In this document: positions 43,900 through 64,000 of the stretch, one piece after another
Position numbering within the stretch: the stretch's first letter is position 1
Layout: every line of letters begins with the position of its first letter
Assembly: GCA_013115135.1 (NCBI GenBank)
Contig: JABANP010000012.1
Location: 264,758 to 328,757, forward strand
Origin: Perkinsus olseni
Lineage: Eukaryota; Perkinsozoa; Perkinsida; Perkinsidae
Length of the DNA: 64,000 nucleotides
Direction: 5' to 3'
The notes under the pieces: generated by a model
The model's database searches: none
Seen by the model: only the letters and a program-made list of their open reading frames with translations
Told to the model about the DNA's origin: nothing
Translations under genes and position numbers: made by a program

Positions 43900-44098
43900 G
43901 CGGTCACTATTACGGCAAAGTTGATACTGAATGTTTCTACCTATCATAAACTTCTTGCGTTCCTCAAGGGAATCTTCGCTGTGCGTGGAGACGACGGAGC
44001 CGGATTCTCCATCCCATTGCTCATGACGCACTGCTGACATTTTAGCCCAGTCTCGCGGTTCCCGCGGGTGGTCACAGCGGATATCGGCCGTCTAATGG
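43900..44098. other. Intergenic
   Basis: This is the end of EMC1 and the start of the secreted-family array. No feature was seen. Confidence 0.4.
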
Positions 44099-44570: not shown

Positions 44571-44587
44571 CCTCCCTCTGAGGGAGG
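44571..44587. repeat. 17-bp palindrome with 1-nt centre
   Basis: CCTCCCTC-T-GAGGGAGG. This is the leftmost clear example of the single-nucleotide-centre class, at the edge of the array. A second, ACGCGGA-T-TCCGCGT, is at 44730-44744. Confidence 0.85.
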
Positions 44588-45427
44588 GCGTACTGAGACC
44601 AGTGAAATTCGAAGTTCGGTCCGGCTGAGCGGTAATCACTGTTCTAGAGGGGCCGGTGAAAGGGTTGTACAGCATCAGCGATTGAAGATACTCAATTTGG
44701 ACCCGAGCCATCGGATATAAGTCTCCGCGACGCGGATTCCGCGTGGGATGACAATACTGCGGTGATAAGATGCTTGATCCTCGCCATTGTGTTGTCATTG
44801 AGATACACCGTGAGTGACTATCACTATGGAGGGGGAACACTGGTCGTCACAGCGGCCATTCGGAAATGCCCAGGGAACTATGATGAACAATAGTGATGCG
44901 TAGTATACATGATATAGTGACATCTTCAAACACTATAACGCTATTAGGAATCCTAACTCAGGAGACCCCGTATGCAAAGTTCCAGGTCGGTATGAGATCT
45001 TGATAAGGAGTTTCGCTGGTGACACGAGAACCGCTCTCTAGAGTGCGCCTACTGTACACGGCCTGGTTGGATACGGGGTATCAACTTAGATCGTTTATCC
45101 AGCCGTTTTTTCCGGCTTTCGGCGGAAAATTCCGACTGCCAAAACGTCCAATGCAAACTGCAACGAGAGAGCGATGATAAAGTAACAGCAGCATACGGCA
45201 TTAGTCATGAAGGACGCGAAATCGAAATTGCCCGTTTTCCAATGATCGCCACGTATCAATAATATGACATCGTAAATATATCGTTACCAACTTTCTGCCT
45301 CAAATTGTCTACTTCGCCGGCCTCTACGGGAATATAAAGACGTTGGCATGACGAACGAATCCCACAAAAGTTTTCGGCTCTCCTCCGCCTAATCAGTCAA
45401 CATGAGGCCCGGCCCATCATCGGGCAT

Positions 45428-46327
45428 TCACTCTGCATCAGTTCCCTCGAGGAGTCCATACTTGAGAAAGTCCTTCCCGTACCTGCGGGAACTAGACAGA
45501 GATTTGCGGAGATAATCTAAGCGTCGCACAACGCGGGAGCTAGCAGCCTTGAGTTTGCTCTTAGTGGTCAAGAGGTCTGGTAGCCTCTCGATAGCGAATG
45601 GCTCGCCCTCAATGGTGTTGATTCTAGCATTCAAGAAGCTCTCTCTAGAACCGTTGAACTTCTCACGGTCAACAGGTTCCAGTAAGAGATGAGCTCCGCC
45701 AGATGGGTTCCGGTCTTTGTAGAAGGAACCTTGTATCGCCTTGCCAACCATCGCGTAGATAAACTCGTTGTAACGACCTCGGTTGGAAGCGTCCAACTTG
45801 ACGCCTGTTAATTGTGACGCTCCATCGAACTCTACCGTTGCTTCCACTCCATCTTCATTGAACCCGTAGTATACACCGTTAGGAGCAGGCTCCTCAGCAT
45901 CAGCCAGCAATAGCTGGTTTCCGGTCCACAGACTCTGTAAGATGGGGAGGGTGAGGTTACCCAGAAACCGTTGCCCCAGAGGCGAGAGGACAAAGAAAGG
46001 GAATGGGTGGTTGGTGTTGCCTTGTGCCCGATAGCTTTTAGTGCCTTCCATGTCATCCACGCGGTATACAGCCAGATTGACTGCTTCAGGGTCTCGGCGA
46101 GGTCTCAGGCTATGTCTCACATACTCACAGGAGAGCCCATCTACAGTTTGACGACCTAGCCTTTTCGCATAAAGGGACCCGTCCTCGGTCAGAGGTTCGA
46201 AATAATATCTCGTTCCCGCACCAGACTCGCCTACAATGACCGGATTCCGATGGCCTCTCACTACCTCCCCCTCTAGGGCCAGCAGCAGAGTGAGGCTGAG
46301 GAAGGGGATCTGGCGATGCTGTGGCAT
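45428..46327 (-). CDS. Secreted-family protein, copy 1, intact, 299 residues
   Basis: This is an intronless gene. A signal peptide (MPQHRQIPFLSLTLLLALEG) is followed by the family core: PVIVGESGAGTRYYFEPL, TVDGLSCEYVRHSL, YRVDDMEGTKSY, PNGVYYGFNEDGVEATVEF, YAMVGKAIQGSFY, LLLEPVDREKF, RINTIEGEPFAIERLP, and a basic tail (RRLDYLRKSLSSSRRYG). There is no membrane anchor and there are few Cys residues. Function is unknown. A leader plus mature domain plus basic tail, in a tandem family, suggests a secreted or host-directed protein. A GGCGAGCG box lies about 165 bp upstream (46493-46501). Copy 2 is its closest relative. Confidence 0.8.
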   Translation of the reverse strand: MPQHRQIPFLSLTLLLALEGEVVRGHRNPVIVGESGAGTRYYFEPLTEDGSLYAKRLGRQTVDGLSCEYVRHSLRPRRDPEAVNLAVYRVDDMEGTKSYRAQGNTNHPFPFFVLSPLGQRFLGNLTLPILQSLWTGNQLLLADAEEPAPNGVYYGFNEDGVEATVEFDGASQLTGVKLDASNRGRYNEFIYAMVGKAIQGSFYKDRNPSGGAHLLLEPVDREKFNGSRESFLNARINTIEGEPFAIERLPDLLTTKSKLKAASSRVVRRLDYLRKSLSSSRRYGKDFLKYGLLEGTDAE

Positions 46328-47226
46328 AAAACTGTGTGAAAGTGGAGACTAGGAGGATTTGGGTATTGCCCTTCGCACAGCACCCTTCTAGAGAGCCCGC
46401 CTTTTGGACTAGGCAGATACCCGGCCTGACGTGCACTACTGATTTGGTGAGACGCAGAAAAACTTGGTTACCCGAAAACGTAAGCGTCTCCCAGGCGAGC
46501 GCGATACCCCTCGCGCTTGCCGTGAGTGATGCCTGCGCGAGGCTGCAGCGCAGTCTTCGAAGGTGTTGCCGAATTCTGAAGGCCGCAAGTCTTCTTACCC
46601 AGTTCATGGTACTGTCGATGCTCTAGGAGTCGCTGGCTGCGCCCTCTGAAGGCTTCTCATTCCGGTGCGTACCGATACCTCACCTTGCTTGAACTCTGTC
46701 CTGCAGAGGGCCTGTGCCACAGGCATCGCACATCCATTGTGTCGTCACTGAGATACACCGTATCACCCTAGGGAGGGGACGGAGGCCCTCGCAGCGGTCA
46801 GGGCCCATTCGCAAATGCTCAGGAATTGTAATAGATATTTGTGATGTACAGTATACAGGGCCTGTGAAAACACTCTTCGGTCGTTCCTCTAGCCGTTATC
46901 TTTGGCTACTGTAACGTCTAGGGTGTCCCTATACCCTAGTAGGGTCTACTGCAACCCGACAGCGATGAGAGGGTAACAACAGCATGTGGCGATGGTCATG
47001 AAGTGAAATCGAAATCACCCGTTCTTTTGTTAATCGCTTTGTTATGACGGATACAGACTAATAATGACATTATTCTCATTCCAACCTTCCGCATCAAATT
47101 GTCTCCATTCACCGCCTGGACGGTGATATAACGATGGAACATGGGATAATATAATGAAAGGGAAATATAGATGTTGGCATGATGAGCGGATCCCACACGA
47201 AAGTTTGGTAACTCTCCTCCATCTTA

Positions 47227-48178
47227 TCAGTCAAGGCCTGGTCCATGATCGGGAACGCACTCCTCTGCATGATCCTCCCCGAGGAGACTGTTTTTGAGAC
47301 CGTCCTTCCCGTGCCTGTTGAATCTAGAAATAGGGTTCCGAAGATAACTCAAGCGTCGTACAACGCGGGAGCCGATAACCTTCAGTTTGCTCTTGGTATT
47401 CAGAAGGTCTGCTAGCCTCTCGATAGCGAATGGCCAGCCCTCGATGGTGTTCAATCTAGCATGTGGGAAGCTCTTTCTCGAACCGTCGAATTTTTCCCGA
47501 TCAACAGGTTCCAATAAGAGATGAGCTGCGTCAGATGAGTTCCGGTCTTTGTAGAAGGAACCGCGTATCGCCTTCCCGGCCATCGCGTAGATGAACTCGT
47601 TGTAACGGCCTTGGTTGGAAGCGTCCAACTTGACGCTTGTTAATTGTGACGTTCCATCGAACTCTACCGTTGCTTCCACCCCATCTTCATTGAACCCGTA
47701 GTATACACCGTTAGGGAGCAGGCTCCTCAGCATCAGCCAGCAATAGCTGGTTATCTGTCCATAGGCTCTCTGCGGTGGAGAGTACCGGGTTACCGCGCAA
47801 CAGCGGCTGCCCCTGCCACCCTCGCCTTAGAGGAATGAAGTCTACGAAACGGAATCGGTGATCGATACTGGCCCGTGCCCAATACTGTTTGGAACCTTCT
47901 ACTGCGTCCACACGGTAAACAGCCATTTCAACGCCTCTGGAGTCTCGGCGAGGTCTCAGGCTATGTCTCACATGCTCGCAGTAGAATCCATCCACAGTGC
48001 GACGTTCTAGCCTTTCTGCATAAAAGGACCCGTCCTCGGTCAAAGGTTCGAAATAATATCTCGTTCCCGCAACAGACTTGCCTACAAAGACCGGACTCCG
48101 ATGGCATCTCGCTGCCTCCCCTTGTAGGGCCAGCAGCAGAGTGAGGCTGAGGAAGGGGATCTGGCGATGCTGTGGCAT
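47227..48178 (-). pseudogene. Secreted-family protein, copy 2, one frame break
   Basis: It is nearly identical in layout to copy 1, with the same leader (MPQHRQIPFLSLTLLLALQG). One extra base in a CCC run on the coding strand (plus 47714-47716) breaks the frame after EEPAP. The downstream part, NGVYYGFNEDGVEATVEF through the basic tail to a stop near 47227, is otherwise intact. Gene plus flanks repeat copy 1 with a period of about 1.85-1.95 kb, so this is a recent tandem duplication. The break could be a real mutation or a sequencing error. Confidence 0.7.
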
Positions 48179-49208
48179 AAAACTGTGTGAAAGTGGAGGC
48201 TAGGAGGGTTTGGGTATTGCCCTTCGCACATCTCCCTTCTAGAGAGCCTGCCTTTTGGGGCCGATTAAGCAGACACGCGGCCTGAGGTCTACTATTGATT
48301 CGGTGAGACACAGGAAAAACTCATGTGCCCGATAACTTTGGCGTCTCCGAGGCCGCCCCAGCGAGGCGATGGCGAATCCCTTCGCCCTTGCGAGACTGTA
48401 GCGCAGCTTTCCGAGGTGTTGGCGAACTCTGAAGGCCTCAAGACTTGAGGCTCAAGTCTTCTCAGCCAGCTCGTGAAACCTTCGAAGTTCAAGGAGTCAC
48501 TGGTTGCGGCGCAGCCGCTGCGCCCTCAGAGGGCGCTACAGTCCTGTACGCTACGCTCCAGCCTTCAGAGGGGGCGGCCCTCTTCCGGTGCGTGCCGGTA
48601 CCTCACCTTGCTTCAAGCAAGTTGCTTGAACTCTGTCCTGCACAGGGCCTGTGTCAGTGGCCTGAGAGGTGCGATGCCTGTGGCACAGTGCCACAGGCAT
48701 CGCACCTCTCAGGTTGGCCACCCGAGGTGGCGAGATGTTTCTCCGGCCCAGTTCAATCATCCGTTTACGTTCGTCCGCAAAGATGCTTCGTTGGAGTGTT
48801 TAGGTGGCAGAGATGAAACTCGATACAACCATGGTAATCGCCGATTACTAATCGGTCCACAAATACTCTAACGAGACAACAGCCCAACTCACACACGGTG
48901 TGTGACACACCGCAGTTCAACACACCACTGTTCAACAACACCGTTAATCACGGTCCGTGATACCTCTACAAATTATTCCTCCGCAGCTTTATCATTCATG
49001 TTATTGATATGAATTATACAGCATTGAAAAATGGGCTTCTAGAAACGATATCATGAAAGTTCTGGAATACGGCAGACTGTTGATTTCGCATTATCCATAC
49101 CTGTCAGGTATTACCTGGCAAGGATGTAGGCATCCGCGAAAATTCTTCGAATTTTTGCGGGCTATCCTGCTGCCGGCAGGATAATCTCACGTCACGATAC
49201 TGCTTGAG
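48179..49208. repeat. Spacer dense in 1-nt-centre palindromes
   Basis: No gene was seen. Palindromes in this spacer include 48436-48450, 48440-48460 (AAGACTTGAG-G-CTCAAGTCTT), 48508-48524 (GGCGCAGC-C-GCTGCGCC), 48520-48536, 48607-48621, 48612-48630 (TTCAAGCAA-G-TTGCTTGAA), 48661-48713, 48841-48855, 48889-48905 and 48897-48911, plus 49106-49118. Neighbouring ones overlap by sharing an arm. Confidence 0.85.
48661..48713. repeat. Perfect 53-bp palindrome, 26-bp arms, 1-nt centre
   Basis: The left arm 48661-48686 starts CCTGAGAGGTGCG and ends CCTGTGGCAC. The centre is A at 48687. The right arm 48688-48713 is its exact reverse complement. It is the longest perfect example in the window. Confidence 0.95.
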
Positions 49209-50182
49209 CTACTCCATCTTTTCAGCCATTGCGTCGCATTGATCGTCATCGGAACCACCTTCTTCTGAGGCATTCCCGGAGAGGAGTTTGGTTGCCAGTC
49301 CATCTCTACTCTTGCGGAAAAGTGGATGCAGCATGTCGGATGGTCTTGAAGATTCTCGAAATACGAGATCTGGTACTCTTCAATGGCTCAAACGAGTTAA
49401 GACTCAGAGCTTCATAAACTTCTTCTGCCTTGCCGTGCCAACCCACAATGGTATTAATTCGAGCACGCGAGAAACTCTCTTTCGAGCCGTCGAACTTTTC
49501 CGGGTCAACGGGCTCCAAGATCACGCCGAATTGAGCTTTCGGTTTGGAGGAGTAGAAGAAACCAACAATCGCCTTCCCGAGCATAGTGTACTCGAAGGTT
49601 TCGCAGGATTCGGCATTCACTCTGACTTTCCTCACTTGCGAGGTTTCATCGAACTGGACTGTTGCTTGCAAGCCTTCCTCATTGAAGCCAAAATACATGG
49701 CGTTCGGAGCGGGCTTGTCTGCATTTTCGGTGACATACATCCGGTCTTTACTGATAAGATCCTTCACATTTTTGAGGCCAGTTGTCTGTACCCTACACCA
49801 GGCGAAACCGCTACCTGTGAATGGGTCGGTTTGAAGAGGGTTCCCTCCTTTGCGGTTTCAAATACTGTTTCGAGCCTTTAACATCGTCCACAGTGTAAAC
49901 CCACCACTGCCATCCTTTCTGCCATTCACGTTTATCTTTGGCGTGGTTCCGTGACAGATACGGTCTCATGAACGCGCAAGCGATCCCGTCCACAGTGTGC
50001 CTTCTTATACCCTCTGTATTCCTTCTCATAAGTGGGGGCCAAGCTTCGATATAGTACCTTGTACCATTCTCAGATTCTCCGACTACTACTGGCTCATGCT
50101 GTCCTCTTATGAAAGTCGTCTGTAATGCCAAGATGATGGTGAGGCTGAGGGAAGCAGCATGACGGTGATATCTCATAGAAGT
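49209..50182 (-). pseudogene. Secreted-family protein, copy 3, two frame breaks
   Basis: The leader MRYHRHAASLSLTIILALQ and core VVVGESENGTRYYIEAWPP are followed by TVDGIACAFMRPYLS and YTVDDVKGSKQY. The frame breaks near 49850, resumes with GSGFAW..VKDLISKDRMYVTEN, PNAMYFGFNEEGLQATVQF and SRARINTIVGW, and breaks again at an A run (49319-49322). A typical tail, SRDGLATKLLSG..SDDDQCDAM, ends at 49209. It is closest to copy 5. A GGCGAGCGAAA box lies about 235 bp upstream (50416-50427). Confidence 0.7.
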
Positions 50183-51906
50183 AATCGGACAAAATAGGTA
50201 GGCTAAAGGAACCCGGAAGGTATCAGGCCCATTACCTCTCAAGAAGGCTATCTGTCAGAGACTGGTCTCCTTAAGAGACCCTCCTGTGAGTAACTGAGCC
50301 AGCAGCTAGTCCGGGTGCGGGTACTTCGATAGGACGTCACGTCAGTAAGTGGGGCGGCGGAAGCCGAGACGGCTCAATGTTGTCCGTCTCCTTGCATGTG
50401 CCCTCTTCGCCTTCGAGGCGAGCGAAATTTACGTTGGTGGGGATATACAGGCTTTATAGTACAGGGTATCGGATGCAGCGGGTTTTCGGGAAGGCAGCTA
50501 TTCTGAGTAGCTGAACAGCGTTTTCGTGAGGGTTACAGATCTCCGAGATCTGATCTCGGGGACCGGCGCAAGGTCGGCTGCAAGACTAATCGCAATCACG
50601 GAACTCAACGGTGATTCGCCGACGACGAAAAATTCTCTCGAAAAGGCTTTTCGATCGACGCCTCGGTTCTACTGAGTCGGTAGAAGTTGGTGAAGTCCGC
50701 TAATCGCTAGTTACTAGTGCTACTGTAGCGCGAGGCCACAATTAGGGTACGAATCGAGCTGGTTTCTTTCAGATGGGCTCCCTGAGGGTCCAGTCCGCCA
50801 GGCCCTGGCGGCCAGGGATCCGCATTAGAGGGAGCTATTCTCGTGTGAGCAGCATCTGCCGTCAGCCTCTGACGTTGACGACGCGACTCGTGAAGGAAGT
50901 TGCCTTACTGCATCGCATTACTGACAAGAAGCGACTTGGTGTCAGGACAGCAATGCTGCAGTCTTAGTGACGTCTTAGAAGGTCGAACTAAAAGACACTC
51001 TTCTTTGACCAGGAGCTGAATCCTTGGGGCTGTGCGTGGGACGCATTGCGCATCACAATCACATGCGTCTCGCCCAGGTGCGTCACCTCCATCTCCGGAA
51101 CTCGGCACTCTCAATGAATGGACACTGCGAATATTCTACACGTCCTCTCGGGTATCATAGTTCAAAACTGAGAGATCGACATGCACGAATGAAGGCGTCT
51201 TCGCCCGCTCGACGATTCTGCCTTGTTCAATCTATCAGTAAGATGTCCATCGATGGTCATTCATCAATGGCGGTAACCACCAGGCGTTTGAGACTTACAC
51301 TTTGAGTTCCCCTCGGACTGAGGGCCTCAGTCGCGTCACCAATAGCAGAGGTTCCACTCACCCTGAAGAACGACCCCTCGATATCCCGCTCGGTTAGGAT
51401 GGATACTAGTGTGGCTAGGATGGGATTTCCATCATGGAAACCCTGATCGCTGTCGTTTCCAAGTTTCGCGTGGCGTCATCGTCGAACTCATGTACCCTAC
51501 GGCCCGTGTTGGTAGAATGATATCTCGACGAGATAATCTCGCTCTACATTAGCGGAGATGACGGGTTCACACTGTGAACAGTTTTCACTCCCAGGGACTC
51601 CCTGGGAGTGAAAACGCATTGAGCGAAGAGGCAGGATACTTCTATTTTCGATAGCGAGGGTTCACTAGAGTCCACTGAGTTGACCATTGACACCTGCAGT
51701 AGGCGCGTACTAGTGTGCACTCCAACAAGACAACAGTTATCAGGTAACAACATTAAAAGATTGTTTTAAAGAACAGTGGCGTCTCCGGGAATTGGTTATT
51801 CTCACACGGTTGACTAACATCGACATCTTTCAGCCTGTGCCTTCCTGCCGTTTTCCCAACACCGTAATGAGCCAAGATCCGGCTGCCGAAAGATCTTCTG
51901 CTGCGC
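50183..51906. repeat. Spacer with many 1-nt-centre palindromes
   Basis: No gene was recognised. Palindromes: 50536-50552 (CAGATCTC-C-GAGATCTG), 50543-50559 (CCGAGATC-T-GATCTCGG), 50795-50811 (CCGCCAGG-C-CCTGGCGG), 50803-50817 (CCCTGGC-G-GCCAGGG), 51316-51332 (GACTGAGG-G-CCTCAGTC), 51529-51541, 51565-51579 (GTTCACA-C-TGTGAAC) and 51581-51615. The downstream box of copy 4, CCAACAAGACAACAG, is at about 51722. Confidence 0.85.
51581..51615. repeat. Perfect 35-bp palindrome, 17-bp arms, 1-nt centre
   Basis: Left arm GTTTTCACTCCCAGGGA, centre C at 51598, right arm TCCCTGGGAGTGAAAAC. It directly follows the 15-bp palindrome at 51565-51579. Confidence 0.95.
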
Positions 51907-52875
51907 CTACTCGATGGACCCGGAACTGGAGCGATCATCGTCCTCTTCTGTGTCATCCTCTGTGACGAGGATGTCATTAAGGCCATCCTTGCCACGTCTC
52001 CGAAACCTAGATACGGCATTTCGGATGGCTTTGGATGCTCTCGCGATACGTGATCTGGCAGCGTTGAACCGCCTAGTTCGACGCAGTCCGAGGAGGTCTG
52101 GTAGTTGGCCGCTTTCGACGGGCCAGCCCTCGATGGTGTTCATCCGAGCCCGCGAGAAGGTCTGTCTCGAGCCATCAAATTTTGTAGGGTCGACTGGTTC
52201 GAGGATGAGGTAGACGCTGAATTCTTGCGCCCTGCCGAAAGCTCCCATCAGGGCTTTTCCTAGCATTGTGTAGTTCAGTTCATTGTACCTCCTTGCTTGC
52301 GGACCTCTCACCTCGACGTTCTTCACTTGTGAGTTATCATCGAATTCAATAGTCGCTCGCAGACCATGCTTGATGAAGCCGTGGTAGACACCGTTCGGGA
52401 CAGGCTTCGCCTCATTCTCAGTGGCAAATAATTGCTCTTCGCTGAGCAGACGGTTGGCAGCGGAAACTATTGGGTCGTCGGCCCGTACTGGACTTTCGAA
52501 ATCTTCTTGTGCTGCGGGCGTGAAGGACTTGAAAAGGAGCTTCCTACGGGCGGGCGCCACGTATATCCTCGAACCCTCCACGTCGTCCATAGTGTACATC
52601 CACATTTGGCATCGTGCATGCCATGCATCGTCTTCATAATCTGCACACGCTTCCAAGTGTGGTTCCTTGTACATGCACTTGAAGCCATCTACAGTTTGGT
52701 GTCGGGTACCCTCTCTATTTCTGATCATCCATTCGGGCCAGAGCTCGAAGTAGTATCTTCTCCCTCTATCGGACTCCCCTACAAGGATCGGCTGCTGATG
52801 TCCTTCTATGATCTGCAGTCGTAACGACAGCATTAGGCCGACAGTCAGACGAAGAGCGTGATGCTGTAGTCTCAT
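51907..52875 (-). CDS. Secreted-family protein, copy 4, intact, 322 residues
   Basis: The leader MRLQHHALRLTVGLMLSLRL is followed by ILVGESDRGRRYYFELWP, TVDGFKCMYKEPHL, YTMDDVEGSRIY, PNGVYHGFIKHGLRATIEF, YTMLGKALMGAF, LILEPVDPTKFDGSRQTFSR and MNTIEGWP. The tail is basic then acidic (RFRRRGKDGLNDI, TEEDDDRSSSGS). It is the longest intact member. No clear GGCGAGCG box was seen upstream, unlike the neighbours; a GGCGGCGAGG variant lies at about 52990. Function is unknown. Confidence 0.8.
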   Translation of the reverse strand: MRLQHHALRLTVGLMLSLRLQIIEGHQQPILVGESDRGRRYYFELWPEWMIRNREGTRHQTVDGFKCMYKEPHLEACADYEDDAWHARCQMWMYTMDDVEGSRIYVAPARRKLLFKSFTPAAQEDFESPVRADDPIVSAANRLLSEEQLFATENEAKPVPNGVYHGFIKHGLRATIEFDDNSQVKNVEVRGPQARRYNELNYTMLGKALMGAFGRAQEFSVYLILEPVDPTKFDGSRQTFSRARMNTIEGWPVESGQLPDLLGLRRTRRFNAARSRIARASKAIRNAVSRFRRRGKDGLNDILVTEDDTEEDDDRSSSGSIE

Positions 52876-53581
52876 TGAAAATGATAAGCTGAGAGATGTC
52901 GAGAGATGCCAACTCTTTCATTCGGCCCAAGAAAATTCACGTCACGGAGGCAACACCTATACAGAGACAGACTGTATGGGGACACTCACTGGGCGGCGAG
53001 GACGCCATGGAAGAGTATGGTCGCCCGATAACCGAGACTTCCCGGAAGTGGACGCATTATCGGATAAGCACGATAAGCGGGGAAAATGTGTATCCCAGCT
53101 TGTCGTGCTTTTGGTGACAGAAAGTGGTCACGGAATGAAAGCGGCAAATTCGTGTTGGATCTGTTGAAATGACGATGTCATATTAACATTACAACATTAC
53201 TGTCCCAAACTCGCGCAGAGAGAACTCTGCGCTAGTGCTTTCTTCGGCTGCTCGAGAGGTAGTCATTTAGGAAGATCCCAATAAAATCGTCTGATCGGCT
53301 CATAAGTACTTCAGCGAGACAGCAACCGTATTGTAACACCACAACTTACTTTTTAACAACGCAGTTATACAAAGCATTATTCGACTTATCATTCTTATTA
53401 TTGATACACGTTATACAGGATAACCATAATTTAGGTTTTTCATCAAACGATATTGTGAGCCTTCGGAATTACGGCTGACCATCTATTGCACATCTGCCAA
53501 ACCTGACAGACCTGTGTGGACGTTGGGAAAATAGTCGAAATAGCGAGATAGCCTCGCGTCAAGATATGGTTTCTGTTTGAG
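52876..53581. other. Spacer between copies 4 and 5
   Basis: No gene was recognised. It holds a hairpin GCGCAGAG-agaa-CTCTGCGC near 53214 and the CAGCGAGACAGCAACC downstream box of copy 5 near 53311. Confidence 0.5.
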
Positions 53582-54544
53582 CTACTTCTTCTTTTCAGAC
53601 ACCGCGTGGCATTGATCGTCATCGGAACTATACTCTTCTGTGTCACCCTCCGTGAGAAGGTGGCCCTTGAGGCCATCTTTAGCCCTCCTGCGAAAGCGAG
53701 ATGCAGCGTTTCGGACGCTTCTGAAGACCCTCGAAATTGCTTCTAATGGCTTGAAGCTGGAAGCCCCTAGAGCTTCATAAAGTGCTTCTTTGCCGCCTTT
53801 CCAACCTTCAATGGTATTGATTCGAGCACGCGAAAAACTCTCTGTTGAACCGTCGAACTTATCTGGGTCGACGGGCTCCAGGATGAGGCCGAGTTGGAAG
53901 CTCGGTTTGGAGAAGAAGCCGACCACCGCCTTCCCCAGCATAGTGTAGTGAAAGCCGTTGCAGCCTCTCAAGTTCACTCTGACCCGCTTCACTTGTGAGG
54001 TTGCATCGAAGTAGACAGTTGCTCTGAAACCTTCCTCATTAAAGCCATAATATATGCCGTTCGGAGCTGGCTTGGCCGCATTCTCAGTGACGTACATTCG
54101 GTCTCTCTTGATAAGATCCTTCACAAGTTTCAGGTCAATTGTCTGTAGTGTAGGATTCCAAGCGAAGCCGCTTCCCGAATTGGGGGGAAACCGCCAGCCG
54201 TGGACGGCGGGCGCTCCCTCCGCGGTCATGTACTGTTTCGAGCCTTCGACGTCATCGACTATGTAAGTCCACCATTGCCACCCTTTCTGCCATTCAGCCT
54301 TACCTTTGGCATCGTTTCGCGATTGATACGGTCTCATAAACATGCACTCGATGCCGTCCACAGTGTGCCTTCTTATACCCTCTGTATTTCTTCTCATACA
54401 CGGAGGCCAAGCTTCGACGTAGTACCTTGTACCGTTCTCTGACTCGCCCACTACTACTGGCTCATGCTGTCCTCTTATGATATTTATCTGTGATGCCAAC
54501 ATGAGGTTGAGGCCAAGGCAAGCCGCTTGACGATGATATATCAT
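53582..54544 (-). CDS. Secreted-family protein, copy 5, intact, 320 residues
   Basis: The leader MIYHRQAACLGLNLMLASQ leads into VVVGESENGTRYYVEAWPP, TVDGIECMFMRPYQS, YIVDDVEGSKQYM, PNGIYYGFNEEGFRATVYF, YTMLGKAVVGFF, LILEPVDPDKFDGSTESFSR, RINTIEGW, and the basic tail ASRFRRRAKDGLKGHL followed by an acidic end. A GGCGAGCGAAA box, inside an AAGGCGAG-cgaaa-CTCGCCTT hairpin, lies about 172 bp upstream (54716-54727). It is closest to copies 3 and 7. Function is unknown. Confidence 0.8.
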   Translation of the reverse strand: MIYHRQAACLGLNLMLASQINIIRGQHEPVVVGESENGTRYYVEAWPPCMRRNTEGIRRHTVDGIECMFMRPYQSRNDAKGKAEWQKGWQWWTYIVDDVEGSKQYMTAEGAPAVHGWRFPPNSGSGFAWNPTLQTIDLKLVKDLIKRDRMYVTENAAKPAPNGIYYGFNEEGFRATVYFDATSQVKRVRVNLRGCNGFHYTMLGKAVVGFFSKPSFQLGLILEPVDPDKFDGSTESFSRARINTIEGWKGGKEALYEALGASSFKPLEAISRVFRSVRNAASRFRRRAKDGLKGHLLTEGDTEEYSSDDDQCHAVSEKKK

Positions 54545-54715
54545 AGAAGTAATCGGACAGGAAAGGTAAGCTGAGGGAACCCAAGAAATTCTAGGCCCGC
54601 TACCTCTCAGAGCGGCCGCCTCTCAGTCTGGGAAGCGGGTATTTCGCTACAGCCTCACGAAGCGAGGTGCCGGAAAACGAGGCGTCTCGAAGGCGATACC
54701 TAAGACATCACACCA

Positions 54716-54727
54716 AGGCGAGCGAAA
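54716..54727 (-). promoter_or_regulatory. Shared upstream GGCGAGCG box (copy 5 example)
   Basis: AGGCGAGCGAAA on the plus strand (TTTCGCTCGCCT on the gene strand), about 172 bp before the copy 5 start. Matching boxes precede copies 1 (46493), 3 (50416), 6 (59761), 7 (62077) and 8 (63715); copy 2 has a weaker GAGGCGATGGCGA (48363). The fixed place and orientation suggest a promoter element or a conserved part of the duplicated unit. Confidence 0.55.
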
Positions 54728-57186
54728 CTCGCCTTCTTGTCAGCGATGGAGACGTGCGGATTTTCGCTCGCTAAGATAGCAATCCACGGACTCACAGACC
54801 TCGGAGCGGCGGAGGTCGATCGAGGAGGTCGATGGCCATCGATGCCATCGATGGCCTCCGTCGATGCCATAAGGCATCTAGGGAGAAGACTTCCGTAGAG
54901 ACTCCGGTAGAGTCTGGTGTAGTCTACTGATCGACGAAGCGCCCGGCGTTTCGTGAGGGAAATCGACATTGAGTGGGGGAAACCGTTTCGGCATCTTGTC
55001 TTCACAGAAACAAAACCCTGCAACGAGGCCTCAGCGAGTGTGTTCATTGGTTGCACCGGATATTCTCCCCAGGTTCGGAGGCAATATTTTCCAGGTTGAT
55101 GAGAAATCGAAAATCTTCTCGAATATCACGCAGCAAATTCTTAGAAACTCACGGCTTAACGCGGACACCGGAAGTCCCATTTTTGAGCAGTAAAGTGCAA
55201 TTGAATTGAATTACAGTAATTCAGATTCTGATTAGACCCGAATATCGTATGGCAATTGAGAGAGCGCCTAATAACTAGCTTGCTGCAGGAAAGTCAAACC
55301 CCAATTCGGAAGTGTTAAGGACTGATACAGGGACATTAGCACCTCTGGTTCCGCGCACTGTTTTACAGTGTAAAATTTACACGGGAAATTGGCTTTTTTC
55401 GGGGATTTTTTAACTCTGGTAGTCGTCGAATTCCTGTGTTCAAGAAGTCTCCTTGTGCGTAGCCTCTAGTAGCGGGGTTTCATGATGAGTAACACACTGC
55501 CTGCTCTCGAGGATGCAACGAGCCACGCAGCAGAAGTTCAGTGTGATGTCACGGATGACAGTGGGTACTCTAGGAAGGCGCTCTTTTCCACACGTGTGTC
55601 GATAAGTCTATTTGCCATGTTTGAGGGGCGCGCGAAGTGACATGGTCGGACTCACAGATCGTGTATCACAGAGATGCTGTAGTGTTGCTCAGTATCAACA
55701 TTTGAAGAGCACGTTTGTACCAAATCTTGCTGTAGTCTTGCACTACTATTGCCTACATAATCTAGGTCCTAGGAATGACTCATTCCGAATGAGGGAGACA
55801 CTGCCGAACAGAGCTTGTGTGAGGTACGAGTTTAGTACCTGGTACCTGTGCATGCCTTTGACGCTCCTCTGGTCATCTCGAATCGGCGCTTGTTTTATGG
55901 ACATGGGATTTCTTTTAACCCTTGTCTATTGTAGTCAATCCTTCCTAGTAGGAATCCTTCCATTTCTTGACATCTCCAAGCGGCACCTGACGAGGTGTCT
56001 GTGGTCGTATTCTGAGAGTATTCGAGTTGACTTTAAAGGCATCAGAAAAAGTCTGATCTCCCCGCAATATGTTGCCGACCGACGCTCTGATGACTCGACG
56101 CTATTGAAGCACTGTTATTCCAATCTGTTTCGCATGAGGAACGCAAAGCCTCGAAGAGCCGGAGCGAATCAGAAAGCAAACTCTTGACCAGGTTGATACT
56201 CAGCTTTCCTACCCGTAACCTGTCTGTTGCGTTATTTGCAATATTCTCTTCGCGTGCACTGAGGTTTGTGAGATCTTTCTATTCCACTGCGGAATGTGGT
56301 CTGACTCCTCCTTCTTGCCCGCGCCCTTCCCCTTCACATTCGTTGCAGAGGGCCATGCTGGGACTAATGTAAGTCGGGTGAGCGTAGCGACAAGGTACTA
56401 CCTCCCTGTAGGAGGCTAACTCAACCTCAACTCCCACCGTCGCTGATATGCTGGCGCCAGTTGTGCGGTACGAGCGATTGGAGGACGACTATGCTGGTGG
56501 TGATTACGCATTCGAGTCAACGGATGGTAATACAAGTATGCGCCTGAGGTCTTGTGATATTAGGAGACTATTTATCGAGTTGGTGATTCGGTAGAACTCA
56601 CGGGGTTTCTGCAGCGTCGTAAATCTCGGATCACAATCGCTGTTGGTCACTAGTGATCTCGTAGTTCTGTTACTCGCCTGCCGCTCAGGGAACCTCTCGG
56701 CGGCGACCAGCGCTTCGGGTATGTCTTATGATTATGACGATCAGAAAGAAGGAAGAACGATCGAATGGAACTCGGGGGATGGTAATGGCACTGTCATCAT
56801 GGCAGTCACTGCGGAGATGGTTGGCGCCTTGCTCGGTCCTCCGCGTATTTGGGAAAAGGATCGCACAGAAGAATTAGGCCACGACAGGTCGAAGCCGGCG
56901 CAACCCTTTTTCAGTTGTCTTAAGAGTTTACGATTCATACGCTCTAGAATCCCGAACTTATCCATGACAATGAGCTAGGAGAAGGGCAATCGTTGAGTCG
57001 GGGGTCCGTGATCGTGCCTGGCAATCGATGGTGTAGAGTCGATCAGAACTCTCATATTGCCCTACGTTGATTACTGTGGGGCGCGCGTTATTCTCTTGCA
57101 GTAGCTATGGACAGATAGTAGGTCTCCTTCGTCCTCACCACAGCTTCTGGTGGTCATGTTATTTCGAGGGCATACGTCTCCCGCAG

Positions 57187-57374
57187 GTGATTCCCCTACT
57201 ACCCGACCCAAAAGAAAGTATCACGAATTGGACCCTCTGCAGGCCACTGGGGCTCCTTATCTCGGTGTGTACGGCCCGGGGTATGACGGATGGATTCCCT
57301 CCTGGTCAGGCGTCGAGAGCCTCTATTTGCTCACGGCCCCAAAGCGACGAACGTTAGAACAAGAATATCGATAG
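57187..57374 (+). CDS. Possible last exon of an unrecognised gene
   Basis: After a CCGCAG acceptor the frame encodes PKRKYHELDPLQATGAPYL then GVYGPGYDGWIPSWSG and LTAPKRRTLEQEYR with a TAG stop. Its composition looks like real protein rather than chance, but no family was recognised and upstream exons are not settled. Confidence 0.35.
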
Positions 57375-57852
57375 ATCAGTCGTTTTACTACAGCCTTAGA
57401 ATATATCATCTGGTGAAGTACTATGAACATAATATGGATTGCCTCGTGTGCGTCCGTATTTCCTCTGATCTTAGTCTGCCTGTGCTGTTAAATCTGATCG
57501 ACATTGATTCTATCGAATCACGTGCTTCGCCGTTTTAGCTATCGTAGCTCTACAGTACATCCTTGGGCGATATCGTTTTCGTAAGTCATCACATGGGGAG
57601 TCCTTGCCTGGTCGGCAGGCCGACCCCCGCAATCATGATGCCACATCATTGGTCATCGATAGTCATTTTCATTGATTCTGTCTCACATAGTGGTGTATTG
57701 CGTTCCTTGGTTCGTCGGACCGGTCCATTAGCCGGCCTCTCCTCCAGCTGCCAGTATGTCCCATTGGATGTAGTGCGAACATACGACGGTATATATTTCG
57801 CGAGATGACATCACCGAGTCATTGCTTCTTCTATCTGCTGGAATGTTGTCAG

Positions 57853-58006
57853 AATTATTTACTCGTTTATGCTCAGACTCTGAGCACAAACGAGTAAATA
57901 ATTAAGCCACTCTAAGCCTTAGAGTGCTTTGCTACCTTCATTGTCCTCTCATGAGTTGCTCGTTTTTTTCTCCTGATGTCGCTCGAGCTCCTTCATTCAA
58001 TGAAGG
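57853..58006. repeat. Cluster of three 1-nt-centre palindromes
   Basis: 57853-57903 is a 51-bp palindrome with 25-bp arms, centre C at 57878 and one mismatch (57869 against 57887). 57908-57926 is CACTCTAAG-C-CTTAGAGTG. 57990-58006 is CCTTCATT-C-AATGAAGG. The first two are only 4 bp apart. Confidence 0.92.
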
Positions 58007-58562
58007 TGATATGAGGACGGCTGGATAACAAGAGGTAATAACATTATTGGGCGCTGTCCCTAGAAGTATCTTCTGAAATACCGCGAAGAGAGCCTTCCGT
58101 AATCTCTCAATCCTTTTGGGAGTCTAGTATCATTCATTTTCAACCACTTCAAAGCTGGCCCACCCCGGCGCGTCGTCCAGGAGCTCCATCTCCTTGGGAT
58201 GATCAGATCAATGCCCCTTGGCCTCGATGGGGAGCATACCTTTCTGGACGCTTCAATTTTCAATTTTTCAGGTGTAGCAGGAGGTTCCTGCCAGGAGCCC
58301 TGAAGTGATGCCTCATTCGCGGGCTCGAGGCGATTTAGTGTACAAGACGATGCCGTGGTTTCATTACACTTGACTTGTACTCCAACAAGATAGTATCCTC
58401 TAGGCAACAACAGAATGGGCTCCATAGAATCCATGATCATCGCTTGATCGTGAGTAATTCTTCATGTTTTCCTGTCACACATACTTTGAACAACATTCTA
58501 GCGGGAATTGAGCGGTATCGCAGTCCAGCAACCTATAACCCTTCCATGATTAAGCTAGCTAC

Positions 58563-59572
58563 TCAGAGAGCATGGGCCGTGGTCCATTCCCGGAGTTCCC
58601 CTTCTGTGCATTGTCCTCTGCAAGGAGGCTGTATGTGGGGCCATCTTTTCCTTGAGTGCGGACCACAGAAGCCGTGTTCCTGATCGCCCTTAACCCCCTC
58701 ACAATCTGGGACCGGACACCCTCGAGCTTGCTGAGCTTGGTCGGGCTGAGAATCTCTCGTAGGCTGCTCCTGTCGACGCGCCAGCCCCCTAACGGTGTTA
58801 ATTCGAGCACGCGAGAAGCTCTCCCTCGTTCCATCGAAGTCACTGGGGTCTACAGGCTCAAGGAGAAAGTATATTCTCCTGGCGCTTCTCTTGGTAAGTA
58901 AGGTACCAATGATCACTTTTCCAAGTATCATGTAGTGCATTCTCTTATAGCGCAGTCCCCGGGAATTAACCACCTTAACGTCTTCTACTCGTGAGTTCAC
59001 ATCGAACCTCCTCACAACTTGCACATCGTAATTTCCATTCTTATTAAAGCCGTAGTACACACTGTTCGGAGGTGGCTTATCGTCACTCTCGATGACGTAT
59101 AACTGGTTTTCGTCGAACAAACGATTTGCAGTAGAGAGTATGGGGTCGCTCGGTAGCAGCGGACTCATCTCCTCCCCCGCGCAACCTATGGGTTGGAATG
59201 TCTTGAACTGCTGTATAATATACCGCATGGCCATATACAGTGTATATGGCCATGCGTAGTTGGCTTCCAAGGCTGCTTATAAAACCTGTAACCCTTCACG
59301 TCGTCCATGGTGTACAACCATATTCTGTGTTCGCCGTTCATGGCATCTTCAGAGCGGGCTAGATACGAGGACCCGTAGCTGCAGTTGATACCGTCAACAA
59401 CGCGGCTAGTCGTAAACCGGTCCACGTCTGGTCATCCACTTCGGGCGGTAATCAAAGTAGTATCTCGTACCGTCAGACTTGCCCACGAGGACGGAATGAT
59501 TTTGACCTCTGGCGATCTCTCCTTGTAACGCAAGGACGATTGTCAGGCTGAGGCCAGAAGGTGGAATCTCAT
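58563..59572 (-). pseudogene. Secreted-family protein, copy 6, several frame breaks
   Basis: It starts MRFHLLASA and then needs frame changes to continue as LSLTIVLALQGEIARG, VGKSDGTRYYFDYRP and VVDGINCSYGSSYLA..YTMDDVKGYRFY. A further change gives PLLPSDPILSTANRLFDE, PNSVYYGFNKNG, YMILGKVIIGTL, FLLEPVDPSDFDGTRESFSR and a stop near 58563. A perfect 33-bp palindrome (59224-59256) sits inside the coding region where one break occurs. The upstream GGCGAGCGC box is at 59761-59771. Confidence 0.7.
59224..59256. repeat. Perfect 33-bp palindrome inside copy 6, 1-nt centre
   Basis: Left arm CGCATGGCCATATACA, centre G at 59240, right arm TGTATATGGCCATGCG. It lies between YRFYKQPWK and the resumed frame, at a position where intact copies have a variable linker. 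Confidence 0.93.
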
Positions 59573-60889
59573 AGTCTACTTTATGAGAAGAAAAAAGACT
59601 TAGACAACATTAAGCATCGGCAATCATGGTGCTTCCCTGATGAGGCAACTATCATATGGCAGACGCCGTGAGATATTTTCTGATGCGAGGAGATGTCCGT
59701 ATCTTTCATGCGTTGCTATGCGTGGAAAAGCAAAGTCGTTCGATTATTGAGATGTCTTCAAGGCGAGCGCAACTCAGATAGAGCGCTATCTATGGGGAGA
59801 AAGGGTAGCCTGAGAGATCCCCCTAGCTTGCAGAAGACCCAGTTAGAATGTCAGAAGAGCGAGAATAATGTTTCAGAGCGAGCAACCGCCTCGACTGATA
59901 CGCACTGCCCGTCAGTGATGGTGTAATACTGACGAGAGTGTTGGTCTTGTACCTAGGGCCTTGTTCGCTTTCAAAGCTGGCTGATCCATGCCTCCCGTGA
60001 CGGGAGTCCCGTCGAATGGTCCTGTCTTAGCTTGAGTCCTTAGGAAGAATCTTCCTGGAAGATAGTATCTTCAAGATACTGAGCATTTAGTTGTTTCATC
60101 TGATCGCATTCAAGTGCTCCCGGGCTCTTGTGGTATGAATTATAAGCTTGAAGGAGGTGAAGTTCACATCCTAGGGAGGTAAACGGGAAAGTAAAGCCGT
60201 CAGTAAAGCGCGGAGGTAACAGGTAAACAGTCTGTTAACCTGGTAAACAGTCATTTGTTGGTGCTAGAGTCTCTAGCCTAGAGAGTAACGTGGCTCGACG
60301 TTGGAGCGCTCACGCGTACGAATCCCGGCAGGACTACGCTGACCACACTGACGAGATGCATCGCTGAGGTGTGCCGGAATAGCCGTCCATTGAGAGTGTG
60401 GTAGTCCTTCGAGAGTGCGGCACAGTCGTGATTCATGATTCGTGAATCTTGTGACTCTCCGATAGGCACACAAACCTCTCACCCAGAAATCCAATAGAAA
60501 TCCGACATTACTCAGTGACAGCGACTGAGTCTCAGTCGCTTTCTTCTCTCAGTCTGCACTTATCTGGCCTTGGTTGCATTTAAATTCAGTGATTGAATCC
60601 TCCTGTGGTGTCAGGATTACGGGGGCTTTATGAAGCCCCCGGAGTATTCCCAGGGGGGACTTGGTAAATGCAATGGATTGATGTCTACTTCAACAAGATA
60701 GCAGCCACGAGGTGAGAGCACGGGCTTGGTATCATTCACAAATATCGGGAGTTTTATTCTCTGATTCTATCATCTCCAATGATTGCTATAATAATTTCTG
60801 TCATCATACTTCACTCTGAACGATCCTCGGGATTGCATCGTCCGTATCTGAAGGGCAACTGGTGGTCGTCAAGTGCGCGCAACTTCCTT
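59573..60889. repeat. Spacer with dense overlapping palindromes
   Basis: No gene was recognised. Palindromes: 59992-60006 (CTCCCGT-G-ACGGGAG), 59999-60013 (GACGGGA-G-TCCCGTC), 60042-60056 (AGGAAGA-A-TCTTCCT), 60058-60072 (GAAGATA-G-TATCTTC), 60064-60080 (AGTATCTT-C-AAGATACT), 60264-60276, 60270-60284 and 60520-60540 (AGCGACTGAG-T-CTCAGTCGCT). A GGGGGCTT-tatg-AAGCCCCC hairpin lies near 60623. The copy 7 downstream box, CAACAAGATAGCAGCC, is at about 60688. Confidence 0.85.
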
Positions 60890-60914
60890 CATGGTTCAGC
60901 CGACGATGAAGCAG

Positions 60915-61885
60915 TCGCACCTATTCATCTGGCATGTAGGGTGCGCCCTCCTGGTCGTCGGAGTTATCCCCTTCCGTATCACCCTTTGTGAGGAGTCTAT
61001 CCTTGAGGCCATCTTTCCCCTTCCTACGGAACCTGGATGCTGCGTTTCTGATTGATCTGAAGGCTCTTGAAATACGGCAGCTGGCGGCCTTGAAGAGGTC
61101 AAAGCTAGCCAGCCCCAGAGCATCTAGGAGTTGACCGCGTTCCACGTGCCAGCCCTCGATGGTGTTTATACGAGCCCGCGAGAAGCTCTCCCTCGAACCG
61201 TCGAATGTTTTCGGATCGATAGGCTCGAGGATGAGACTAATCCCCGCTCCATCCGTTCCTGCCGAAGAGACCCATCACGGCCTTGCCCACCATGGTGTAG
61301 CTCAACTCGTCGAATTCCCTTGATATTCACCTTTACGTGCTTCACTTGTGAGGTCGCGTCGAACTCTATCTTCGCTCTGAAACCAGCCTCATTGAAGCCG
61401 TAGTACATACCACTCGGTTCTGGCTTAGCCGCGTTCTCAGTCACGAATACTCGCTTCGTCTTGAGCAAACGTCTCACATCGCAGACTCTCGGATGGTCAG
61501 CTGGCAGCCATGTTTCCCGTTCGTAGCCGCTTTCTATAGATTTCGCGGTCCCAAACAACCTATATCCTGATGTCGAGCATTGCTTTGCGCCCCTCATGTC
61601 ATCCACGGTATAAATCGTCAAGTGGCACTCTCCATGCCATGCCGCTTCGCTCCTAGCCGGCGACAGATATGGTCGCATGAAGTAGCAGTCGAAGCCATCA
61701 ACAGTGTGCCTTCTTATACCTTCCATATTTCTCTCCATGTAAGGTGGCCAAGGTTCGATGTAGTATCTCGTACCCTCTTCCGACTCGCCCACGATGATCG
61801 GCTCGTGCTGGCCTTGCAAGCTCTTAAGCTGCGATGCCAGCATCAGCGTGAAGCAGAGGTGAGAAGCCCAACGGCAATATACCAT
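60915..61885 (-). pseudogene. Secreted-family protein, copy 7, two frame breaks
   Basis: The leader MVYCRWASHLCFTLMLASQ and core IIVGESEEGTRYYIEPWPP, TVDGFDCYFMRPYLS, YTVDDMRGAKQ, PSGMYYGFNEAGFRAKIEF are open. The frame breaks near 61313 (after VNIKG) and again at a CCCC run (61242-61245, GGGG on the coding strand). It then runs through LILEPIDPKTFDGSRESFSR, RINTIEGWHVERGQLLD and the tail ASRFRRKGKDGLKDRLLTKG to a stop near 60918. The GGCGAGCGAAA box is at 62077-62088, about 195 bp upstream. Confidence 0.7.
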
Positions 61886-62029
61886 AGGACTGTTTGTACG
61901 GGTAACAGGGGCAGCCTGAGAGAAGCTCTCACAGAGAACCCAAGGGTTTCACTGCGTCTCGATTCGAGACTTTCGAACGAGCAGGACGTAGCCCCGGGCA
62001 CGCTGACGACATCAGCCTGACGTAGCACA

Positions 62030-62637
62030 CTGAGCGGACAGCCAGTCCGAGACAGCCGTGGGCCCAGCCGTCTCGGAGGCGAGCGAAACTATCGTGTCGT
62101 CGGCGAGGGAGGCGTACCGGGGATACTATCTCCTGGATAAAAACAGTGTGAAATTCGCAGAGTTGAGCGAGACCTTCCGGGAAGAAGCAGTATTACTCAC
62201 CAATCCTTCAACTCATACTAATTGCGGAAAGCTATTTCCCGGAAGTTGGAATCAATGTCCTGTAAGGCTTTTGAGCACATACTCTTGAGCTGCGGTATCA
62301 CAATCACTCAAGAGACGGTATACGAGTACGAAGGACGCGATTCACCTACTATTTGCGGAGGGGTATAGCTGACCCATTACAGATCACCGAGCCAGTGAAG
62401 AAAACTGCTGTTTTATCCCCCTGCTAAGTGGCTGGATGCTTGCGATTGATTCCGATTCAGATCTTCTGAACATCTCGGTGTGACCAAGATCGTCGCCGGC
62501 GACTCCGTGAAATGATGGAGCTTATCGATGGCAGAAATCAGATGTCCACTTCGTACACGACAGCAGTCATATGGTAACAGCAACGAAATCAACAACAACT
62601 AAGGAAATTCTGGATAGACATACGTTGGCTGGATCGG
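62030..62637. other. Spacer between copies 7 and 8
   Basis: No gene was recognised. It holds the copy 7 upstream box at 62077-62088 and the copy 8 downstream box (ACGACAGCAGTCATATGGTA, about 62557). Confidence 0.5.
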
Positions 62638-63543
62638 CTATTTCCTCGCCAGAGAACCAGGACGGAGTTTAGAAGCCATTTTTGAGACCGCCCTGAAGCT
62701 TTTCCTGACATTGGATTTGAACGCCTTAATCTTGCCAGAGGCATCCAGGCCGAGGATCTTAGGGAGGTCGTTACTGTCGAAGGGTTCACCATGGATGGTG
62801 TTCATTCGAGTTTGACGGAAACTCCGTGTCGAATCACGGAACTCGTCGGGGTGGACAGGCTCAAGGATGAGTGCAGCTCCTTCGGAGCTTTTATGCTTGC
62901 TGAAGAAACCACGAATCGCCTCCCCAAGCATGGTGTAGATGAACTCGTCGTACCCCACATGTCCCGGATCATGGAGCGTTACTTGCTTCAGTTGTGACTT
63001 GTCATCGAAGACAATGGTAGCCCCCAGACCACCTTCGACAAAGCCGTAGTATACACCGTTGGGTGTTGGCCTCTCCTGACTCGTAGCGAGCATTAACTGA
63101 TTCTCCTTCAGTAGGCGGTTGGCGTTTGCGACTATCGGGTCATTCGATGGCAGGGGACTTGCCTCGGTATCCCAAGACATCCTGCCGTCCCCGACAGGCC
63201 GGAATGCCTCGAAACCCTTCCCGGAACATGTCTTTCCTGGTGCCCAATGCTGTTTGGAACCTTTCACGTCATCCACAGTGTACATCCAGAGACGACAGTC
63301 CTTAGAATCTTTACATGGTTCTTGATGAGGTCTCACATAGAGGCAGTCGAAGCCGTCTACTGTATGATGTTCCATATCACCCGTATTAATGGTCGTGCCT
63401 TTAGGCCAAGGTTCGAAATAATATCTCGTCCCCTCCTCAGACTGGCCCAATAGAATCGGCTGCGGCTGGCCCCTCATGGCCCTCCCTTGACATGCCAGTA
63501 CCAGAAGGAGGCTGCGGACAGGAGCCTGATGATGTAATCTCAT
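62638..63543 (-). CDS. Secreted-family protein, copy 8, intact, 301 residues
   Basis: The leader MRLHHQAPVRSLLLVLACQG is followed by ILLGQSEEGTRYYFEPWPKG, TVDGFDCLYVRPHQE, YTVDDVKGSKQHW, PNGVYYGFVEGGLGATIVF, YTMLGEAIRGFF, LILEPVHPDEF, TRMNTIHGEP and a basic tail (FKSNVRKSFRAVSKMASKLR). It lacks the acidic end of copies 4 and 5. The GGCGAGCGTAA box is at 63715-63726, about 175 bp upstream. Function is unknown. Confidence 0.8.
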   Translation of the reverse strand: MRLHHQAPVRSLLLVLACQGRAMRGQPQPILLGQSEEGTRYYFEPWPKGTTINTGDMEHHTVDGFDCLYVRPHQEPCKDSKDCRLWMYTVDDVKGSKQHWAPGKTCSGKGFEAFRPVGDGRMSWDTEASPLPSNDPIVANANRLLKENQLMLATSQERPTPNGVYYGFVEGGLGATIVFDDKSQLKQVTLHDPGHVGYDEFIYTMLGEAIRGFFSKHKSSEGAALILEPVHPDEFRDSTRSFRQTRMNTIHGEPFDSNDLPKILGLDASGKIKAFKSNVRKSFRAVSKMASKLRPGSLARK

Positions 63544-64000
63544 TGTAAAGTCTCAAGGGAAGGAATGAGTGGACTGAAAAGGGCTCGGATGTACCAGGCC
63601 TACACTACGGCTCCGAAAGACGAGCTTAACATCACAGGCGCAACGAATACTGAGTCTGGAAAGAGATAGGCAAGACGGGGAAAACATAGACGCCCGAAAG
63701 TTCTAGTTGCCCGAAGGCGAGCGTAATCTCTCGCGTCATCTCGCGCGCCTGGCGTAACGGATGAGGTTGCACGGGACGGAGGAGGACTTGGGTCTTCGGG
63801 AGAGTAACGGGCAACCAAATTGAATTGCTATTCAGAATTGATCTTGGGGTTCCGAGGGTGCAGGAATAGTGAAATTTCGGTGTATCATAGTGTATCATTC
63901 CAAGCCTTGGAATCCAAGGCTCGTTTCCTTTCCCACGGGTAGAGTCTCTAGTAGAGACATCCGCGACTACTGTTACCAGACGAATCATTCGTATTACGAA
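63544..64000. repeat. Upstream region of copy 8 with palindromes
   Basis: It contains the upstream box and palindromes 63897-63913 (ATTCCAAG-C-CTTGGAAT), 63904-63920 (GCCTTGGA-A-TCCAAGGC) and 63944-63958 (GTCTCTA-G-TAGAGAC). The window ends inside it, so the array may continue. Confidence 0.8.

Follow-up and report, generated by a model that had tools for sequence, protein, structure and literature searches.

What process fills a stretch of the Perkinsus olseni genome with palindromes whose two arms are separated by exactly one nucleotide? The stretch in question, referred to here as the window, comprises the final 64 kb of contig C24 (positions 264758-328757) in an assembly of 61.48 Mb and 968 contigs. 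The palindromes are very probably excision footprints of hAT-superfamily transposons, produced, it appears, as hairpin-capped ends at the donor site were opened and then joined by pairing across the duplicated 8-bp target. A preliminary description of the window had reported dozens of these palindromes, and the comparison with other spacings that it proposed as a possible refutation favors its claim. In the whole window, 59 inverted repeats with arms of at least 7 bp have a spacing of 1 nt, versus 1 to 8 at each of the spacings 0 and 2 to 12; with arms of at least 12 bp, there are 3 at spacing 1 and none at the other spacings tested. Between positions 44001 and 64000, the counts for arms of at least 7 bp are 50 at spacing 1 and 0 to 4 elsewhere. 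A sample of 244,058 bases, made up of the window, eighteen 10-kb pieces, and a single 58-base piece (L009-L027), contains 207 at spacing 1 versus 11 to 20 at each of the spacings 0 and 2 to 10, arm lengths summed. The central base varies, and the class was produced by a process rather than by copying of one element, both as that description had it. However, the class is not confined to the region beyond 44 kb, where it was thought to begin: perfect copies of the unit defined below start at positions 206, 2298, and 41647, and, of the 41 nonoverlapping window units that have at most 2 mismatches, 9 precede position 44000. Units are denser within the spacers of a gene array.

Most of the one-base-centered palindromes are parts of one exact 22-bp unit. 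They tend to form overlapping pairs of the type W-n-W'-n-W, where W is 6 bp: at 19 window sites both spacings are 1 nt, whereas one of the remaining 24 combinations of spacings 0 to 4 gives a single site and the others give none. The centers are themselves templated, each matching the complement of the base just outside it at 18 of the 19 sites on the left and at 17 of the 19 on the right. Because of this templating, the repeated unit is properly taken as 8 bp, not 6. Its layout is X(1-7), the full reverse complement (X') of an 8-bp target X, and X(2-8), or, as bases, x1..x7 / x8'..x1' / x2..x8, with 22 bp replacing 8 for a net gain of 14 bp. Of the spacing-1 palindromes with arms of at least 7 bp, 45 of the window's 59 and 152 of the 207 in the 244-kb sample have their center in a unit of this kind, with no more than 2 mismatches.

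This layout is specific. The sample contains 54, 40, and 51 units with 0, 1, and 2 mismatches, respectively, compared with means of 0, 0.05, and 1.35 (maxima of 0, 1, and 5) in 20 Markov replicates. Merging of overlaps leaves 138 units, divided 53/39/46 by mismatch class, and these near-even classes would fit steady production combined with neutral decay. A scan of target lengths 4 to 12 at offset 1 shows a peak solely at length 8, the numbers of perfect sites for lengths 6 to 10 being 4, 1, 54, 0, and 0. At length 8, offsets 0, 2, and 3 give 0, 0, and 5 perfect sites versus 54 at offset 1. Nowhere else among the target lengths and offsets tried is there an independent peak: the other combinations of lengths 7 to 10 and offsets 0 to 3 yield 0 to 9 perfect sites, and the highest rival count for a length of at least 7 (9 sites at length 10 and offset 3) consists entirely of sites that overlap the 22-bp units and are read out of register. 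The 92 sites obtained with length 6 and offset 3 may reflect chance, given how short that layout is.

The target also shows a sequence preference. In the 138 nonoverlapping units, 120 of 276 positions have the preferred base, T at position 2 of X and A at position 7 (43% versus a background of 24.1%; p = 1.5e-12), and each of the three mismatch classes shows the preference (42/106, 35/78, and 43/92 for 0, 1, and 2 mismatches). In the cited passages, the hAT transposon Hermes duplicates an 8-bp target with the consensus nTnnnnAn (PMC2803484). The P. olseni units share this target length and motif but follow T2/A7 only partially, in the 43% just given, possibly owing to a mixture of elements and old sites. 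The combination of a fixed geometry with an nTnnnnAn target points to a transposase cut. It also bears on replication template switching, one of the causes offered in the preliminary description, in which the growing strand switches to the complementary one, extends backward there by a few bases, and then switches back, so that direct copies come to flank an inverted one. This would give the same direct/inverted/direct order with no need for a transposon, and the units do copy their own local target. However, template switching should vary in switch length and loop, whereas 8 bases and the 1-nt offset dominate here, and a T2/A7 preference of this significance is unexpected from polymerase slips. 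With the inverted copy fixed at 8 bases, the net insert at 14 bp, and the offset at 1 nt, and with the nTnnnnAn preference, this cause finds no support and is considered highly unlikely.

Comparison of homologous copies reveals units that one copy has and the other lacks. Homologues of two window spacers are found in contig C702 (20,472 bases, pieces L048 and L049), a diverged homologue of the array spacers in the same assembly that represents either another haplotype or a segmental copy and is useful for footprint dating. Four window units are missing from C702, namely, those at 48502..48523 (1 mismatch), 48607..48628 (X = CTTGCTTG), 48890..48911 (X = CACACACC), and 60042..60063 (X = AGGAAGAT), whose empty sites match at 30, 32, 29, and 32 of 32 positions, respectively. 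Three C702 units (X = TTCTGAAG, GCCGGTAC, and CCGTGATG) are missing from the window, the last of them lying inside an older unit found at 59992..60013 (X = CTCCCGTC). The empty copy at the 7 polymorphic sites holds X once, either exact or with 1 or 2 mismatches, and the empty-site match is 29 to 32 of 32. Units common to the two copies include those at 48436..48457 (X = CCTCAAGT), 48834..48855 (X = GTAATCGG), and 60058..60079 (X = GAAGATAC), which overlaps the unit at 60042..60063. Two of the seven polymorphic units lie less than 30 bases apart, one in each copy, where the alignment shows mismatches rather than gaps; they are separated by the empty-site test. By hand count in the well-aligned parts, ends excluded, 7 of the 11 length differences between the window and C702 are full units and the others are of 4, 10, 13, and 20 nt, a count that does not favor long forms but is small. 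An alignment of the spacer at 48.4-48.7 kb with the paralogous 46.6-kb spacer contains three gaps of exactly 14 columns, one at each of the units 48436, 48502, and 48607, as well as one 42-column gap and smaller ones in a poorly aligned end. The empty site in the 46.6-kb spacer matches at 28 of 32 positions for the 48436 unit and at 31 of 32 for the 48607 unit. Units common to homologous contigs and units with point changes (the 53/39/46 division) also speak against a fold-back artefact of sequencing or assembly, as do the constant 8-bp geometry and the target preference; nothing beyond the palindromes themselves was found to support such an origin, and its probability appears negligible.

The genome encodes proteins of the hAT type. 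At least 21 matches to the hAT dimerization domain (PF05699) are found in P. olseni, a number that is a lower bound; the 14 control genomes contain none, but all of them are prokaryotes, so that this comparison is weakly informative. An open reading frame (ORF) in L034 combines DUF4371 with Dimer_Tnp_hAT. Two hAT-type elements, at L031 537-1967 and L029 982-2845, have TAGAGA-type inverted ends and are flanked by the 8-bp duplications GTCCGGAG and GTCTGATG, respectively, both of which fit nTnnnnAn. Together with these domains and elements, the 22-bp layout, the 8-bp/1-nt peak, the T2/A7 preference, and the 14-bp presence/absence differences make hAT excision footprints the most likely explanation.

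The duplicated target in each scar needs a prior insertion, as established transposition chemistry requires of any target duplication. This argues against an alternative in which the same hairpin chemistry operates without living hAT transposons and the agent is either a domesticated hAT transposase or a different superfamily that makes 8-bp duplications; we regard this alternative as highly improbable. It would account for the small number of recognizable hAT copies next to very many scars, and a domesticated hAT enzyme of Kluyveromyces, Kat1, is described in the cited passages as making hairpin-capped breaks on flanking DNA (PMC4763223). However, the P. olseni sites are unrelated in sequence, unlike the fixed sites of a domesticated enzyme. 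Of other superfamilies, Dada elements, known in P. marinus, duplicate 6 to 7 bp according to the cited passages (PMC3706591), whereas perfect sites at offset 1 number 4 and 1 at these lengths versus 54 at length 8.

The hAT excision model reproduces the unit in five steps. Insertion of an element would duplicate X. On exit, the transposase would nick one base into each flank, and the element-adjacent base of X would depart with the element on that strand. The free 3' ends would then attack the opposite strand, forming flank hairpins with one unpaired base at the turn, which would explain the single central base. The hairpins would be opened far from the tip, leaving two tails that jointly span the whole of X', and pairing along X', fill-in, and ligation would yield X(1-7) X' X(2-8). 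The left 3' tail is predicted to read x1..x7 x8'..x1' and the complement of the right tail x8'..x1' x2..x8; the predicted tails share exactly x8'..x1', and joining there would yield the observed unit letter for letter. A stricter version, with each hairpin opened at least 8 nt from its tip, was dropped, as the tails need only jointly span X'. Repair-gene matches comprise one short Ku, one DRMBL (Pso2/Artemis type), and nine DNA_pol_A; they show no joining pathway to be missing, so the repair route stays inferred, as do the hairpin-opening distance and the enzyme responsible.

In the cited passages, hAT transposases cut the nontransferred strand first, and its 3' end attacks the other strand to form flank hairpins (PMC6900584). 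The Ac/Ds footprints of yeast, Candida, and Arabidopsis are palindromes centered on the complement of the base adjoining the element (PMC5873905, PMC1978519), with a hairpin intermediate and microhomology-guided joining described in the same passages. Both the offset-1 peak and the templated centers place the center of the P. olseni palindromes at the complement of the element-adjacent base, as expected from a nick 1 nt into the flank, and the suspicion of a hairpin voiced in the preliminary description is judged right. The difference lies in uniformity. As described in the cited passages, Ac/Ds footprints are heterogeneous and mostly short, at most 3 nt in C. albicans and with arms of at least 3 nt in 66 of 140 cases in S. 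cerevisiae, where the maximum is 20 (PMC5873905), whereas 50 of the 60 fully templated inserts of at least 6 nt in P. olseni have the 8-nt form. The introner elements of Amoebophrya, a related marine alveolate parasite, also combine short inverted and direct repeats (PMC7789003). In the cited passages, however, their inverted repeats lie at both intron ends and their direct repeats are of 3 to 5 nt (PMC7789003), unlike the P. olseni units, in which the arms adjoin one base with nothing else between them. The reaction, then, is already known; what is unusual is the number of scars and the single dominant repair product.

Tails that extend beyond X' and are joined without that pairing would give asymmetric footprints with longer arms. 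Ten fully templated inserts of at least 6 bases have a length other than 8, versus none in three Markov replicates. Inserts of 2 to 5 nt are indistinguishable in the scan from chance or period-9 repeats, and 3-base inserts (13 versus 1.7) are not claimed as footprints, as they coincide with a general period-9 excess. The asymmetric footprint at 59211..59256 (X = CTGTATAT) consists of x1-x7, 6 templated bases on the left and 17 on the right, and x2-x8; it carries a palindrome with 16-bp arms (59224-59256) and overlaps the longest frame (58563-59270, minus strand) of an array gene copy. The one at 60510..60540 (X = ACTCAGTC) has 3 templated bases on the left and 11 on the right between x1-x7 and x2-x8 and carries a palindrome with 10-bp arms (60520-60540). 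These two footprints contain two long palindromes already flagged in the preliminary description. A third site, at 48650..48713, was not recovered by the exact templated-insert scan. It begins with x1-x7 at 48650-48656 with one mismatch (6 of 7 expected bases), continues with 4 templated bases (48657-48660), and ends in a palindrome with 26-bp arms (48661-48713, center 48687), which, by reading, would fit an asymmetric footprint with the predicted target TGTGCCAC. A full partial target is found beside 6 of the 32 palindromes with arms of at least 8 bp that lie outside units, versus 0.2 in shuffles.

Several observations weigh against hAT excision. The other 26 of these 32 palindromes, including those at 44571-44587, 51581-51615, and 57853-57903, have no full partial target adjoining; they may be one-sided or decayed footprints. 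The dominance of a single full-length product is unlike the cited studies of hAT footprints. Recognizable hAT copies are few relative to the number of scars, and searches with two hAT flanks revealed no allele with an element in place of a footprint, their sole diverged relative (in C775) not being a clean empty site. Among 16 distinct flanks of living elements, T2 is found in 4 and A7 in 8 (p = 0.06). Of the 80 sites fetched for the motif TAGAGATGGGC, 22 run on with A in the manner of hAT ends and 34 come from a single unrelated repeat, so the count of 97 for this motif as possible hAT ends was left unused. Finally, the third 14-column gap in the 46.6-kb alignment, at the 48502 unit, matches an empty site at just 26 of 32 positions.

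Outside the window, 38 perfect units and 97 units in total are found in 180,058 bases. Extrapolated to the genome, this gives about 13,000 perfect and 33,000 total units, as orders of magnitude, from a sample that is nonrandom (contig starts and window neighbors) and uneven, its 10-kb pieces containing between 0 and 19 units each. Long stop-free frames are avoided: none of the 138 units lies in a frame of at least 300 codons (8.1% of the sequence), 3 lie in frames of at least 200 codons (14.6%), and 15 lie in frames of at least 150 codons (28%). This avoidance may be behind the earlier impression that the palindromes belong to array spacers. Given this distribution and the presence or absence of units between homologous copies, the earlier suggestion that the sites are read as cruciforms is unneeded, and the interpretation in the preliminary description is, as a whole, partly supported.

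The remaining window units listed here are a selection, as others with 1 or 2 mismatches exist; no strand is assigned to any footprint. Those with 0 mismatches are found at 206..227 (X = ATCCTCCG), 2298..2319 (CACTCAAG), 41647..41668 (ATTTCGCA), 50537..50558 (AGATCTCG), 50796..50817 (CGCCAGGG), 55361..55382 (TTTTACAC), 55772..55793 (GGAATGAG), 60263..60284 (GCTAGAGA), and 63898..63919 (TTCCAAGG). Units with 1 mismatch are found at 44723..44744 (ATCCGCGT), 49097..49118 (ATACCTGA), and 51521..51542 (TATCTCGT).

The gene array itself is a minus-strand tandem array at 45428-63543 of related ORFs, the longer ones encoding about 240 to 320 amino acids with hydrophobic N termini, as judged by eye. 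Five array ORFs scanned against Pfam give no matches, and a protein search with one array ORF returns only five, all named P. olseni. Elsewhere in the window, the minus-strand ORF at 15231-16973 encodes part of an isochorismatase domain fused to the catalytic domain of glutamine synthetase; it shares 97% identity with a P. olseni protein and has many relatives with both domains. An Rfam search of the window at gathering scores finds one tRNA and nothing else.

By known chemistry, tyrosine recombinases (19 PF00589 matches) leave no scar of such form and were therefore dropped as the agent. An element-like segment of about 448 bp lies near tyrosine-recombinase matches in two contigs (L002 693-1139 and L007 662-1110); 11 of its 14 end bases match, and it has the 8-bp direct repeat TGCGGTGC. 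A 320-bp window segment at 41203-41522, with the 9-bp direct repeat ATGACTTCA and inverted ends, was rejected as a source, as a genome search matched it to itself alone. The unrelated repeat found in 34 of the 80 loci fetched with the motif (L050-L129) starts with CCCGCATCT and leads into TAGAGATGGGCTGGGG or close variants.

Among the open-licence papers searched, none was found to describe a genome carrying a single stereotyped hAT footprint in such numbers, or to report this footprint from Perkinsus. The hAT hairpin footprints published in the papers cited here come from single experimental donor sites, whereas the P. olseni genome, by extrapolation, records thousands. The layout alone reveals the target and the cut offset, and asymmetric cases also reveal the hairpin-opening distance, with neither a transposon nor an experiment. 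It is conceivable, though we stop short of calling it probable, that Perkinsus heals hAT exits by one dedicated route running at a steady rate, in which hairpins are opened well back and paired along the 8-bp inverted target. The +14-bp scar would then be the main source of insertions in noncoding DNA and would record transposon departures across the genome like a clock, there being at least a hundred scars for every living element. Sequence of this kind could address which route a lineage uses to open and join hairpins and what the turnover rate of cut-and-paste elements is once only a few copies are left. In genomes of this sort, an odd-centered palindrome or a +14-bp indel is likely to be a scar, not a regulatory hairpin.

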